NCBI GenBank assembly: GCA_022827885.1
Contig: JAJEIP010000065.1
Location: 1 to 63,669 of the forward strand
Source: Candidatus Poribacteria bacterium
GTDB lineage: Bacteria; Poribacteria; WGA-4E; WGA-3G
DNA length: 63,669 nucleotides
Direction of reading: 5' to 3'
In this document: positions 8,037-15,489 of the stretch, one piece after another
Numbering within the stretch: the first letter of the stretch is position 1
How the letters are laid out: each line of letters starts with the position of its first letter
Position numbers and translations under genes: made by a program
The notes under the pieces: model-generated
Told to the model about the DNA's origin: nothing
Database searches by the model: none
The model's input: the letters and a program-made list of their open reading frames with translations, nothing else

Positions 8037-11030
8037 TTGGACGCGACCCGAATACCAGAGATAGATTTACGTCCTGGTGAACAATTGCACGGCTTTGAAG
8101 TAAAAGCTGTCACACCCATCGACGAATTGCGAGCCGTAACGATTGAATTAGCACATCAACACAGCGGCGCACGTTTACTACATCTCTACACAGACGACAC
8201 AGAGAATCTCTTCTCCATTAATTTCCCGACCCCACCCTCAGACGATACAGGGCTCCCACACATTCTTGAGCACGCCGTTTTAGCCGGTTCACAGAAGTAT
8301 CCCGTTAAAGAACCTTTTTTTGAAATGATTAAGATGAGCATGGCAACCTTTATCAACGCCATGACCAGCTCAGATCATACCTACTACCCCGTAGCGAGCA
8401 ATGTGAAAAAGGATCTTTTCAACTTAGCAGAAGTCTACTTCGATGCCGTATTCCACCCGCTCCTTACGGAGGAGACCTTCAAACGCGAAGGGCACCATCT
8501 CGCACCTGCCGATCCCGAAGACCCCACGGGCGATTTGAAAATAACAGGTATCGTCTATAATGAGATGAAAGGGGTCTTCTCGGATCCAGAGTCGCTCTTG
8601 TATCGAGCAATGACAAGTCGACTCCTGCCTGATACGCTCTATGCGTGTGAGTCTGGTGGCGATCCGGATGCCATTCCAGATTTGACCTATGAGCAGCTGA
8701 AAAAATTCCACGAAACCTATTATCATCCGAGTAACAGCTACTTCTTCCTCTACGGTGATATTCCGACAAACGACTATCTCTCCTTTCTTGCGGATAAGTT
8801 GGATAAAATTCCGAGAAACGCGGAGAGTGCCGCCTTACGTCCCCTCAGTCCAGAAGTCACCCATCAGCAGCAGTGGAAATCACCACAAGTTGTGATTGAT
8901 ACCTATCCCGTTGGCGCGGATGAACCCCTCGCAGAGAAGACGTATCTAATGCTGAGTTGGTTCATCGGAGATGCGACGGATCCTGAAGAGGTTGTTTTGG
9001 GACGCATTTTAAGTCTCATCCTTCTCGGCAATGAAGCCGCACCGCTCCGAAAAGCGATTATCGATTCCAAACTCGGCGCGGATCTCGTCTATTCTGGCGC
9101 CGGTTCTATCGGGGCAGCTGCCACTTTTTACCTCCTCCTCAAAGGAAGTGAAACCGATCGCGTTGAAGCGTTTACCCAACTCGTCATTGATACCCTCACG
9201 CAGGTTGCGGATTCAGAGATTGAGAGTGAGAAGGTGGAAGCAGCGTTCCAGCAAGCAACCTATCACTACCAAGAGGTCGCCTCTATGTTCCCGCTCCGTA
9301 TGCTCCAACGTGTGATTGAAGGGTGGATATATGAGAGGGATTCAAACACCTTCCTGAAAATGGGGAAAACTCTCGCCGATATCCGTCAGCAGTGGCAGGA
9401 AAATCCAGCGATTTTCAATGAACTCATCCGGAAACGGCTGATTGAAAATCCGCATCGCTTGACAAGCGTGCTATCTCCAGATAGAGACAAACAGGCGGAA
9501 ACCGACGCTGAACTCGTCCAACGGATGAAGGAGATACGGGCACAATTCACGGATGAACAGGTGAAACATATCGCTGCTGATGCCGCTGAACTCGAACGTC
9601 TCAATGCCCAACCCAATTCACCCGAAGCATTGGCGAAACTCCCACAACTTCAGGTCAGCGATCTACCCGAAAAACCGAGACATATCCCGACAACGGTGGA
9701 GGACGTTGAAGGACGCGCCCTTCTCCACAACGATGTCTTTGCCAATGGCGTTAACTATCTCGTGCTAAACTTCGATTTGCAAGGGTTGCCGGAGCATCTT
9801 TGGACCTATCTGCCGAGATACACCGACGCTATTAGCAAACTCGGTGCCGCCGATATGGACTACGCCGAGATAGCGCATCGGACATCCGCAGTTACCGGCG
9901 GGATTGGGTGTTCACCCGGATTCAGCACACACGCCCTTGACCCAAGTCGTTCCTTACAAAACATGCGTTTCCATCTCAAAGCACTTGATGGCAAAATAGA
10001 CGCTGCGCTTGATGTGCTCCATGATCTTATCTTTGCTGTGAACCCGCGCGACACCGAACGCCTTCGGGATGTCCTGGTCCAGGCTGTTGCCGAATACCGG
10101 ACAGAGATGATTCAGGATGGATTGAATACGGCGATTCATCACGCCTCGCGCGGTCTATCACCAGAAGCCCATATCTCAGAGATGGTTTTCGGGCTGCCGC
10201 AACTCCACAACACCGAAACGTTCCTCGACAATTTTGACGAACTTAACACCGATTTAATATGTCATATAGAAGCGATCCGTGACTTCTTACTGACCCGGGG
10301 ACGCGTGACCGCGAGTTTCACGGGTTCCGATACCGCTTTTGAGACGACACGCACTAAACTCGGTGAATGGCTCAATACGATGCGAGATGAACCGATGCCG
10401 TCAGAATCTGTTGCGTTTCGACCGTTTGAGACACCGCCGAGAGAAGGATTGGCCGGTCCTATTCAGATCGCCTACTGTGCGCACGTGATCCCGGCACCGC
10501 ATTATTCACATCCCGATTCAACGTTGCTCAGTATCGGTGCACATATTTTGCGGTTGGATTACATCATGAGCGAGATCCGCTTTAAAGGCAACGCTTACGG
10601 GGCATATTTCACCTATAGTCCGTTTGATGCACAACTGTATCAAGCCTCATATCGCGATCCGCATGTCGCACGGACGCTCAACGTCTTTGAACAGGCAGCC
10701 GACTACGTTAAACAGGTGGAATGGACACAAACGGACATTGATCGAGCGATTATCGCAACCGCGAAAACCGCTGAGAAACCGATCCGTCCGAGTCAAGCCG
10801 CAAGCGATGCCCTGAGTCAATACCTTGTAGGACAGACACGTGAGATGCGGGAGGATCGCTACGCACAACTCCGACGTGCCACCCCTGCAGCGGTAAAACG
10901 GGCACTGCTCCAACTCTTGGAGGAAAATCGAGATAAAGCCGCGGTGTGTGTCGTTTCAAGTCGTGAAAAACTGGAAGCGGCGAATCGTGAATTGGCACAA
11001 CCGCTTGTCATTGAGGACATTGTCGCCTAA
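8037..11030 (+). CDS. Presequence-protease-like M16C metallopeptidase
   Basis: A 997-residue protein close to the usual length of PreP/PITRM1 peptidases. The inverted zinc motif HILEH lies at residues 75-79 in GLPHILEHAVLAGSQKYP, and the distal ligand Glu176 lies in YNEMKGVFSDPES, about 100 residues later as expected for the family. Two M16 halves are joined by a helical linker. Homologs degrade unstructured peptides inside a closed chamber; no signal peptide is seen, so it is probably cytoplasmic. The start is TTG, supported by GGAGG 10 bp upstream and by the absence of a closer ATG. It ends the gene set that begins at 6232 and is followed by the REP-like cluster. Confidence 0.9.
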   Translation: MDATRIPEIDLRPGEQLHGFEVKAVTPIDELRAVTIELAHQHSGARLLHLYTDDTENLFSINFPTPPSDDTGLPHILEHAVLAGSQKYPVKEPFFEMIKMSMATFINAMTSSDHTYYPVASNVKKDLFNLAEVYFDAVFHPLLTEETFKREGHHLAPADPEDPTGDLKITGIVYNEMKGVFSDPESLLYRAMTSRLLPDTLYACESGGDPDAIPDLTYEQLKKFHETYYHPSNSYFFLYGDIPTNDYLSFLADKLDKIPRNAESAALRPLSPEVTHQQQWKSPQVVIDTYPVGADEPLAEKTYLMLSWFIGDATDPEEVVLGRILSLILLGNEAAPLRKAIIDSKLGADLVYSGAGSIGAAATFYLLLKGSETDRVEAFTQLVIDTLTQVADSEIESEKVEAAFQQATYHYQEVASMFPLRMLQRVIEGWIYERDSNTFLKMGKTLADIRQQWQENPAIFNELIRKRLIENPHRLTSVLSPDRDKQAETDAELVQRMKEIRAQFTDEQVKHIAADAAELERLNAQPNSPEALAKLPQLQVSDLPEKPRHIPTTVEDVEGRALLHNDVFANGVNYLVLNFDLQGLPEHLWTYLPRYTDAISKLGAADMDYAEIAHRTSAVTGGIGCSPGFSTHALDPSRSLQNMRFHLKALDGKIDAALDVLHDLIFAVNPRDTERLRDVLVQAVAEYRTEMIQDGLNTAIHHASRGLSPEAHISEMVFGLPQLHNTETFLDNFDELNTDLICHIEAIRDFLLTRGRVTASFTGSDTAFETTRTKLGEWLNTMRDEPMPSESVAFRPFETPPREGLAGPIQIAYCAHVIPAPHYSHPDSTLLSIGAHILRLDYIMSEIRFKGNAYGAYFTYSPFDAQLYQASYRDPHVARTLNVFEQAADYVKQVEWTQTDIDRAIIATAKTAEKPIRPSQAASDALSQYLVGQTREMREDRYAQLRRATPAAVKRALLQLLEENRDKAAVCVVSSREKLEAANRELAQPLVIEDIVA

Positions 11031-11058
11031 GCCTATTTAGGCAGTTATACTTTTCATC

Positions 11059-11260
11059 GGTAGGTGCGGTTTCTAACCGCTTTACACACATATATTTTCC
11101 CTCGGTAGGTGCGGTTTCTAACCGCATTTTCTCAACCCCGGTAGGTGCGGTTTCTAACCGCACTTTCTCAATCCCGGTAGGTGCGGTTTCTAACCGCACC
11201 GTTCTTAGGAGAAAAAAGAAAGTATATCTTCCCTTGGTAGGTGCGGTTTCTAACCGCACC
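11059..11260. repeat. Cluster of five REP-like palindromes
   Basis: Five copies of a 22-bp core (GGTAGGTGCGG followed by TTTCTAACCGC) begin at 11059, 11104, 11140, 11176 and 11236, all in the same orientation. In the last two copies the full palindrome is present: 9-bp arms GGTGCGGTT and AACCGCACC around a TCT loop. Spacing between starts is 45, 36, 36 and 60 bp. Single copies occur at 29112 and, inverted, at 42650. This resembles bacterial REP/BIME arrays. It sits between a peptidase stop and the next gene in the same direction, where folded RNA could affect transcript ends. Confidence 0.9.
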
Positions 11261-11290
11261 GCTCTTAGCAAAAAAGAAAAGGAACTAAAA

Positions 11291-12956: not shown

Positions 12957-13703
12957 CTAATACGTTGCTCTTCCGCCGCTGACATCGTAACACTGCCCCG
13001 TTACGAAACTCGCTTCATCCGAAGCCAAGAAATTCACCACAGCCGCGACTTCCTCCGGTTTCCCAACCCGCCCCAATGGAATCTTACTTACCATATAGTC
13101 GACAGTCGATTGTGCCATGCCGTCCAATATCGGTGTTTGGATCACCGCGGGCGACACGGCGTTCACGCGAATGTTATAGTCTGTTACCTCTTTTGCGAGT
13201 GCCTTTGTCAAGCAGATCACACCCGCCTTGGACACCGAATACGGGATGAGCGTTGGATTGCCCTCCTTGCCAGCAATTGAGGCGATGTTCACAATCCTAC
13301 CGTAATCCTGCGCAATCATTGGACGAATCACTGCTTTACAGCAGAGAAAAACGCCTGTCAGGTTGACACCCATCACGGCATCCCAATCCGCTTCTTCTAA
13401 ATCCGTTAAGGGTAGGGTTCGTCCCGCAATACCGGCGTTGTTGACCAGGATGTCAACGCGACCAAAGGTGGAAATCACTTTTTCAACTGCAGCATTGACA
13501 TCAGTAGATTGTGAAACATCTGCTTGAACGGGTAACGCTTTGCGGCCGATAGCCACAATTTCCTGGGCTACCGCTTCAGCTGCTCCCATGTTTAAGTCCA
13601 GAATACCGACATTCGCGCCAGCGTTTGCGAGTCTAATAGCAATCGATTTGCCGATACCTTGCCCCGCGCCTGTTACAATCGCAATTTTATCCGTTAGATT
13701 CAT
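12957..13703 (-). CDS. SDR-family oxidoreductase (FabG-like)
   Basis: The 248-residue classical short-chain dehydrogenase has the NAD(P)-binding TGAGQGIG at residues 11-18, NNAG at 88-91 and the catalytic Ser142, Tyr155 and Lys159 (YSVSK). The closing segment FLASDEASFVTGQCYDVSGG is typical of 3-oxoacyl-ACP-reductase-like members, although the true substrate cannot be read. The start at 13703 is preferred over the upstream ATG at 13730 because GAAGGGAG lies 8 bp upstream and MNLTDKIAIVTG is the normal family start. It overlaps the end of the selenoprotein gene by 17 bp, so it is the last gene of a three-gene operon. It may use a substrate related to the peroxide or thiol chemistry of that protein. 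Confidence 0.9.
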   Translation of the reverse strand: MNLTDKIAIVTGAGQGIGKSIAIRLANAGANVGILDLNMGAAEAVAQEIVAIGRKALPVQADVSQSTDVNAAVEKVISTFGRVDILVNNAGIAGRTLPLTDLEEADWDAVMGVNLTGVFLCCKAVIRPMIAQDYGRIVNIASIAGKEGNPTLIPYSVSKAGVICLTKALAKEVTDYNIRVNAVSPAVIQTPILDGMAQSTVDYMVSKIPLGRVGKPEEVAAVVNFLASDEASFVTGQCYDVSGGRATY

Positions 13704-14256
13704 TAAAATTTCTCCCTTCCAGAAAATCATCTAATTCAATTCCGAATGCGTCTGCTATCTTGTTGACGTAACAGAAGAAACCGACGACCTCCACAATAGC
13801 GAAGAGCGCTTCGTCCGTGAGGCCATGACTGCGGAGATGCTCTAAGTCTGACGGTGTCAGCGTAGGTGCCGCTTTTGTTACCTTAACGGCGAATTCAAGG
13901 ATCGCTTTTGTGGTTTCATCAATGTCAGCCGTCTGAAAATCCGTTACAATCTGTGAAATCTGTTCATCTGTGAATTGTTCCCGCAATTCATCGGCGTGTG
14001 CTATTATTCAGTAGTGGCATTCATTCACTTTTGAAACGACGGTGGCGATCATTTCCCGTTGCATCCGACTCAACGGTGAGTCAGGGTCGTGCATCACGAT
14101 TTTGTAGAGTTCCACGAAAGCACGCATGCTTTTCGGACGCACACTAAAAAGCTTGACGATATTGTAAAGTTGCCCCGCTCGGGCAATCGCCGCGTCATAT
14201 TCCGCTTTCACGATGCCGGTTGCATCTGACTCATCTACGGTTTGAATCCATGCCAT
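13687..14256 (-). CDS. Selenocysteine-containing AhpD/CMD-family peroxidase-related protein (CxxU)
   Basis: Two reading frames, 14256-14008 and 14007-13687, are in the same frame and separated by a single TGA at 14010-14008. Reading it as selenocysteine gives a 189-residue protein. The first half (MAWIQTVDESDATG, SPLSRMQREMIATVVSKVNECHY) and second half (FAVKVTKAAPTLTPSDLEHLRSHGLTD, VVGFFCYVNKIADAFGIEL) are the two halves of a peroxidase-related carboxymuconolactone-decarboxylase-like domain. The family redox motif CxxC followed by His becomes Cys80-His-Tyr-Sec83 with His87. A SECIS-like hairpin lies 17 nt after the UGA (13971-13990). The start has GGAG 6-9 bp upstream, and the gene begins 3 bp after the repeat-protein stop. 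Likely role: thiol- or selenol-dependent peroxide reduction in the cytoplasm. It needs SelA/SelB/SelC/SelD from elsewhere. Confidence 0.85.
13971..14010 (-). promoter_or_regulatory. Bacterial SECIS-like element with UGA selenocysteine codon
   Basis: On the minus strand the UGA (14010-14008) is followed after 17 nt by a perfect 7-bp stem, TGAATTG (13990-13984) with CAATTCA (13977-13971). The stem closes a 6-nt loop CGGGAA. The apical loop starts 24 nt after the UGA and has G at its second and third positions, as expected for SelB-binding bacterial SECIS hairpins. It lies wholly inside the coding sequence. Confidence 0.75.
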
Positions 14257-14259
14257 ATT

Positions 14260-15489
14260 TTATTCTCCAATCACGACACCATATTCACCAACAACCGCGC
14301 CTTTGTGTCCGGTTTGGTAGTGGAGGTGTCTTTCACCGACAATCGGTTGTGTGCTTTGCACCTCGACAGTGCCCCGCACTTTTCCCATCGCCTCTTCATC
14401 CATATCTACACAACAGAGCGGCTTAATTTGGCGATGCACTTGCCGACGAATATGCCCCTCCCGATTGCGGACGATGACATTGACAAAGGCATCTGCTTCC
14501 CCGACGTTAAGGAATCGGAACCAGTCCCAGGCACCCCCCGCAATTTCAGGGAAAAAGAGACGAATCCCAATCTGCCCGCCCTCCACGGAGGCACCGGGTA
14601 GATCGATAATCGCTGTCCCACTTTGCATGTGTCGTTCCGCGACAACCGGTTGGTTGCTCCGCACTTCTACGGAGGATTTCACTTTAATGTCATCCATGGG
14701 TGGCGTCCAACACTCAAAAGGTCTCAATCGATCGCGTTTTTTTGTCCATGTCGATTGTGCGTTGTCATCTTTCCGTGCGATCATCGTGACTTCTGCATCT
14801 TCTCTTCCAACGTTGACGATGACGACCCAGTCTTCCCATGCGGGTCCGACCTCCGGGAAAAAGAGCGTGCGCGGCGCATCCGAGATGACCTGTCCAAATT
14901 GCCCGACACTCGTCTTGCCGCCTTGATAGTGGAGATGGCGTTCTCCGACAATCGGTTGTGAACTTTGCATCTCAACGGTGCCTGTGACGTTACCCATCAC
15001 ACCTTCATTGAGATCCCAACAGCAGAGCGGTTTGATAACGTGATGACGTTGCCGTAACACATCCCCGTTCCTGTTGCGGACGGTGATGTTGACGTGCGCC
15101 TCTGCCTCACCGACGTTCAGAACCCGAAACCAGTCGTGAGCCCCGGAGACCAGTTCTGGGAAGAAGAGCCGCTGTCCAACTGTTCCATATTCTGGAGCCG
15201 CGCCGACAAAATCCAACACATTCGTGTCTTTGTGCATGTGGCGTTCTGCCACAATCGGTTGGTCCGCAGTGAACTGCATTGAAGAGTTCGTTGTAATCTC
15301 GTCAACGGGCGGTATCCAAGACTCAAAGGAACTTATGGTTTTCTCTGCAGACCAAGTCGGTTGTCCGTTGCCAGCATGCCTCGCGATTCCGGTCACACGG
15401 GTGTCTTCGGTTCCTACATTTGTGACCTGAACCCAGTCTTGCCATTCGGGGCCCACTTCTGGAAAATAAAGGGTTGTCGCGCCTGCCAT
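14260..15489 (-). CDS. Four-repeat beta-rich protein of unknown function
   Basis: The 409-residue protein consists of four repeats of about 100 residues arranged A-B-A-B. A repeats begin LYFPEVGPEWQDWVQVTNVG or LFFPEVGPAWEDWVVIVNVG. B repeats begin LFFPE and continue DWFR.LNVGEA and IKPLCC. Each repeat ends in QPIVAERHMH or QPIVGERHLHY. The ERH-M/L-H ending and the paired CC of the B repeats could bind metal, but I know of no characterised family with this pattern. No signal peptide or membrane segment is seen. A GGAGG site precedes the ATG. The gene is first in the operon with the selenoprotein (3 bp downstream) and the SDR. A repeat fold resembling a beta sandwich is inferred. Confidence 0.8.
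   Translation of the reverse strand: MAGATTLYFPEVGPEWQDWVQVTNVGTEDTRVTGIARHAGNGQPTWSAEKTISSFESWIPPVDEITTNSSMQFTADQPIVAERHMHKDTNVLDFVGAAPEYGTVGQRLFFPELVSGAHDWFRVLNVGEAEAHVNITVRNRNGDVLRQRHHVIKPLCCWDLNEGVMGNVTGTVEMQSSQPIVGERHLHYQGGKTSVGQFGQVISDAPRTLFFPEVGPAWEDWVVIVNVGREDAEVTMIARKDDNAQSTWTKKRDRLRPFECWTPPMDDIKVKSSVEVRSNQPVVAERHMQSGTAIIDLPGASVEGGQIGIRLFFPEIAGGAWDWFRFLNVGEADAFVNVIVRNREGHIRRQVHRQIKPLCCVDMDEEAMGKVRGTVEVQSTQPIVGERHLHYQTGHKGAVVGEYGVVIGE

Follow-up and report, generated by a model that had tools for sequence, protein, structure and literature searches.

A predicted AhpD-like CxxU selenoprotein encoded across an in-frame UGA in Candidatus Poribacteria

We report a locus in Candidatus Poribacteria at which two short open reading frames, separated by an in-frame UGA, almost certainly constitute one gene. 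Judged from comparative sequence evidence, the UGA at codon 83 is decoded as selenocysteine (Sec), so that the locus would encode a single 189-residue selenoprotein of the AhpD-like/CMD kind. The gene lies in a 63,669-nucleotide stretch of DNA, hereafter the window, from a metagenome-assembled genome (MAG) of 5.1 Mb in 148 contigs (96.7% complete). A specific selenoprotein and its SECIS element are thereby assigned to a candidate phylum of sponge symbionts; in dozens of its MAGs, annotation pipelines would be expected to divide the gene in two or to omit it.

The coding sequence occupies positions 13687..14256 of the minus strand. The first-pass annotation of this DNA left the strand unstated; its coordinates, and its description of two same-phase frames parted by a TGA, agreed with our translation. 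The first frame runs from 14256 to 14008 (82 aa and the TGA) and continues in the same phase to a TAA stop at 13687. When the TGA was read as Sec, a single protein of 189 aa resulted (...EMIATVVSKVNECHYUIIAHADELREQ...). The TGA itself (14008..14010) provides the second position of a CxxU motif, Sec83. Upstream of it, the codons of a putative AhpD active site, E68 to C80-H-Y, fall at 14014..14055, and the H87 codon follows at 13998..13996, giving the overall pattern E68-x11-C80-H-Y-U83-x3-H87. The Cys80-His-Tyr-UGA motif with a His four residues on, as originally described, was thus recovered. When the 63.7-kb window was scanned mechanically, this was the sole ORF interrupted by a single TGA, and no further split selenoprotein gene was found. 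UGA recoding normally competes with termination. For this reason, the 82-aa truncated product could also be functional, with Sec insertion acting as a selenium-dependent switch between a short and a full protein. The short product would contain C80 and the first active-site helix, but Sec83, H87 and some 105 residues of the conserved fold region would be missing from it, and the locus offers no support for such a switch. We consider this reading quite unlikely compared with that of a single full-length selenoprotein.

By its profile matches, the predicted protein is a member of the TIGR01926 AhpD-like/CMD family. It scored 140.8 bits against TIGR01926 ("peroxidase-related"; cut-off 81.8) over residues 2-174, covering positions 1-174 of the 178 in the profile, and 49.2 bits against PF02627 (CMD; cut-off 23). 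Assignment to AhpD sensu stricto was rejected (TIGR00777, 17.8 bits against a cut-off of 191.95), and no ahpC gene neighbours the selenoprotein locus. Solved relatives matched by sequence were 2pfx, 3c1l, 2prr, 2oyo and 6k40. The AlphaFold model of the protein had a mean pLDDT of 80.4, and Foldseek aligned it with the peroxidase-related structures 2pfx, 3c1l, 2prr and 6k40 at TM scores of 0.77-0.80 and 28-32% identity. The earlier statement that both halves match one CMD fold therefore holds for the read-through protein, as seen from the TIGR01926 match and the model, but not for the halves taken alone: The first half just passed the CMD cut-off (23.6 bits against 23), while the second had no Pfam match.

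The structural comparison also returned the CMD-fold debrominase Bmp8 (6ohi/6ohj; TM 0.72-0.74, 19% identity). Sec is also found in deiodinases, and brominated compounds abound in some sponges. Taken together, these points could suggest a selenium-based reductive dehalogenase resembling Bmp8, with deiodinase-like chemistry, that acts on brominated sponge metabolites and so protects or feeds symbionts living among them. The peroxidase-related structures nevertheless fit better in both TM score and identity, the TIGR01926 score is clearly above its cut-off, and homologs carrying the TGA occur in Planctomycetota too, one of them recorded as from groundwater. A dehalogenase thus appears improbable, and a peroxidase-related selenoprotein remains the preferred reading.

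We then considered how the TGA is conserved. Overall, 49 of the 85 genomes of the phylum contained a TIGR01926 match, with the TGA inside nearly all of the matches; the Sec form of the enzyme is widespread across the sponge-associated Poribacteria. Read residue by residue, all 44 Sec-type sequences, which represent four Poribacteria families and two Planctomycetota, had TGA at the CxxU position, even where identity was as low as about 32%. In the codon alignment, codon 83 was TGA in 43 of 43 homologs and TAA, TAG or a Cys codon in none, and the residues E68, C80, Y82, U83 and H87 were invariant in the same set. Among the 31 closest sequences, the median omega was 0.073 for the N-terminal half and 0.108 for the C-terminal half, with dS near 1. 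Because the TGA persisted in 43 of 43 homologs while synonymous sites diverged by approximately one substitution per site, chance is excluded as an explanation. Purifying selection acts on the stretch that follows the TGA. The first-pass annotation had proposed inspecting homologs at this position, and both comparisons bore out its reading: Homologs with TGA at the equal site retained intact second halves, and Cys homologs had Cys at position 83, with CxxC at the position corresponding to CxxU. As between single and repeated origins of Sec, the tree allows a single one (47% of bootstraps) but does not establish it.

Two individual copies deserve separate mention (G-numbers denote genomes and L-numbers loci). 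L093 (G030, contig C127), from a Poribacteria MAG, is a Cys-type member of TIGR01926 (CQYC) that clusters with proteobacterial plasmid copies; it reflects either contamination or transfer. In G038, of family f4, an 82%-identical copy (L035/L060) occurs away from the usual neighbours, whereas the copies of other f4 genomes are about 60% identical; acquisition of this copy by transfer is possible.

Downstream of the UGA, a hairpin with a 7-bp stem (UGAAUUG/CAAUUCA) and a CGGGAA hexaloop lies at 13971..13990 on the minus strand; the distance from the UGA is 17 nt to the start of the stem and 24 nt to the loop. On comparative grounds, this predicted hairpin is a bacterial SECIS. The first-pass annotation did not refer to such an element, which lends the Sec reading independent support. 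The features of bacterial SECIS elements given in PMC1088965 include a G in a small apical loop, and here a stem-loop just 3' of the UGA carries G in its small loop, CGGGAA. Across 36 distinct sequences, pairing was maintained in 96.0% of cells, and four pairs showed changes on both sides. The covariation score of the hairpin was reached by none of 500 shuffles. When the pairing partner was slid by 1-3 columns as a control, pairing fell to 25-39%, and RNAalifold, which was not told the stem, recovered 6 of its 7 pairs. The pair 24-37 occurred as G-C, A-U, C-G, G-U and U-G; its 5' side is the third position of a codon and its 3' side the first. Some of the compensations (TTC to CTC) therefore alter the amino acid, an argument that the protein sequence is constrained by the RNA. 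As for the thermodynamic signal, the 26-nt hairpin alone had a fold z of -3.05; within a 46-nt stretch the value was -0.77, which is not unusual. The pairing in the window's own sequence was not extreme relative to synonymous recoding (p 0.17), so the case for the SECIS rests on covariation across species.

In a divergent Poribacteria group (L088-L092), we observed a different hairpin, ACGCAGA-GTT-TCTGCGT, nearer the UGA. With the U of UGA as nt 1, the loop of this putative SECIS takes up nt 21-23, versus 28-33 elsewhere; the hairpin may be either a SECIS that has shifted or one acquired separately. The single Rfam match in the 13-15 kb region, a fluoride riboswitch, was sub-threshold and on the other strand, and was taken as chance.

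The genome of the window encodes the full machinery for Sec. The first-pass annotation had named selA, selB, selC and selD as the genes to be sought, and all four were present, at 75.4-601 bits: The tRNA-Sec (selC) scored 75.4 bits and has a UCA anticodon, selA reached 601 bits, selB (350 bits) stands on the same contig as the tRNA-Sec and directly before its gene, and selD scored 360 bits. The selD gene has a single in-frame TGA of its own (L019, G000 C144:60983-61906), and SelD of this genome is probably a selenoprotein too. Among relatives, a tRNA-Sec above the family cut-off was found in 52 of 60, and both Planctomycetota genomes with the TGA form contain one. Four relatives possess the TGA gene without a tRNA-Sec match. 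In two of these (G024 and G033) the contig stops in or beside selB; G034 is 83% complete and has no selB above cut-off; and the tRNA-Sec of G030 is assembled with its 3' part truncated. These missing matches are not counted against Sec. At the G030 locus (L102, 3380-3900), the tRNA-Sec following an intact selB is about 29 nt short in its 3' part relative to the copy in the window's genome, and the TGA gene is intact; the shortening is either an assembly error or a real lesion. Most symbiont bins of a sponge microbiome were reported to have selA and selB, and the part of that report available to us names no client protein (PMC5649159).

The selenoprotein gene is flanked by two conserved neighbours. 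Upstream, a gene for a 409-aa repeat protein (14260..15489, minus strand) ends 3 nt before the selenoprotein ATG. Downstream lies an SDR-family, FabG-like oxidoreductase (12957..13703, minus strand; PF13561, 230.7 bits), whose likely start, an ATG at 13703..13701 behind a GGGAG motif, overlaps the 3' end of the selenoprotein gene by 17 nt. The SDR gene is adjacent in nearly all near relatives, and the order 409-aa gene, selenoprotein gene, SDR gene is retained in nearly all of them as well. The 409-aa protein has no Pfam or NCBIfam family at E<=0.001; it contains internal repeats (LFFPE...DW...LNVG, QPIVGERHLHYQ). We looked to this neighbourhood for a redox partner and rejected the idea, since the 409-aa gene and the SDR gene, conserved as they are, point to no redox pathway. 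Elsewhere in the window (11008-11271, minus strand), an RLETAPT motif is repeated in a short intergenic ORF, which suggests a short tandem DNA repeat.

Deletions with differing junctions have removed the selenoprotein gene from at least five relatives (L081, L094, L097, L098 and L099), each of which retains both neighbours. Short remnants of the 5' and/or 3' ends persist at these loci: the opening codons, the final codons beside the SDR start, or both; a 3' remnant would carry the ribosome-binding region of the SDR gene. The genomes of four of the deletion loci (G017, G005, G003 and G019) retain tRNA-Sec, so what was lost is the gene and not the use of Sec. The selenoprotein gene is dispensable. 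Its repeated deletion in close relatives, with the flanking genes kept, makes a tractable case of selenoprotein loss.

Such losses, together with a copy in G044 that has a TAG and a frameshift besides, demonstrate that decay happens in the phylum, and they could be taken to mean that the locus in the window is a pseudogene whose TGA is a nonsense mutation and whose second half is decaying. Against this, the TGA has been kept in every aligned homolog over deep divergence, the SECIS covaries, the genome has full Sec machinery, and in the copies that truly decay, TAG, frameshifts or deletions are seen as well. Purifying selection downstream of the TGA (C-half omega 0.11) refutes the pseudogene reading, to which we give hardly any credence. 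Genome-wide reassignment of TGA to an ordinary amino acid, rather than Sec at codon 83, would likewise let an ORF read through a TGA, but it is extremely improbable given that TGA is an ordinary stop ending 3 of the 38 long ORFs of the window, that the window has no second ORF split by a single TGA, and that the genome has a dedicated tRNA-Sec and SelB.

The sequence evidence strongly supports decoding of UGA codon 83 as Sec by the SelA, SelB, tRNA-Sec and SelD of the genome, directed by the downstream SECIS hairpin. Judged by homology, the product would be a selenium counterpart of a known enzyme of the peroxide-defence type and would likely serve as a selenol-thiol peroxide or disulfide reductase. 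In the mechanism that we propose, C80 and Sec83 of the all-helical protein would form a redox pair of thiol and selenol, and E68, Y82 and H87 may form a proton relay as described for AhpD. A selenenylsulfide cycle could then serve to reduce either peroxides or a disulfide in a partner peroxidase, with a dithiol donor presumably re-reducing the enzyme. Sec in place of Cys would give the second redox residue a higher reactivity and a lower pKa. A proton relay has been described for Mycobacterium tuberculosis AhpD (Glu118, Cys130, His132, Cys133 and His137), and a five-residue one for Pseudomonas aeruginosa PA0269 (Glu36, Cys48, Tyr50, Cys51 and His55) (PMC3141380). Loss of the AhpD-like protein DR1765 in Deinococcus radiodurans leads to H2O2 sensitivity, and its CxxC mutants are poor at restoring the defect (reviewed in PMC8945050); by analogy, DR1765 would be the best functional lead for the selenoprotein. 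The AhpDs of Corynebacterium glutamicum are described as reductants of thiol peroxidases that draw their electrons from Lpd/SucB/NADH (PMC10460364). The relay residues, DR1765 and the C. glutamicum enzymes together point to a thiol-selenol peroxide or disulfide reductase as the most likely role.

With respect to known systems, CxxU AhpD-like selenoproteins were already known in general, as the first-pass annotation had correctly remarked. Those of COG2128 date from the Sargasso Sea survey of 2005 (PMC1088965), "AhpD-like 1" is among the commonest selenoprotein families of the GOS data (PMC2398784), and a 2026 review places AhpD-like CxxU proteins under TIGR01926 (PMC13188914). The catalogued proteins (COG2128/TIGR01926) share with ours the family, a Sec in place of the second Cys of CxxC, and a downstream SECIS; they come from marine metagenomes and other genomes, and the parts of the catalogues available do not name Poribacteria. 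The likeness to individual entries (e.g., MCB9421940.1) is drawn from descriptions of family and motif. A literature search, which left subscription journals mostly uncovered and is weak evidence, found no paper combining "Poribacteria" and "selenoprotein". Two related (seleno)protein models matched more weakly, NF041238 (AhpD_rel_CFYUT, 77 bits against a cut-off of 175) and NF053654 (YciW-related, 22 bits against 310), and membership in either was rejected with both matches far under the cut-offs. Sestrins (PA26) and Bmp8 have the AhpD/CMD fold in common with the protein; both are remote, sub-threshold in sequence and lower in structural score. M. tuberculosis AhpD is also only distantly related, and its motif sits in another part of the chain. 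Its relay residues and those of PA0269 correspond by spacing to E68, C80, Y82, U83 and H87, and PA0269 has Tyr between the redox residues (PMC3141380), as the selenoprotein does with Y82. The closest comparison is offered by the Cys enzymes 2pfx, 3c1l, 2prr, 2oyo and DR1765 (6k40), which share the family, the fold and the E-x11-C-x2-[C/U]-x3-H active site; they differ in having Cys where the selenoprotein has Sec, and need no SECIS. It is therefore well supported that the Poribacteria protein is a new addition to the known CxxU AhpD-like selenoproteins and not a new kind of system.
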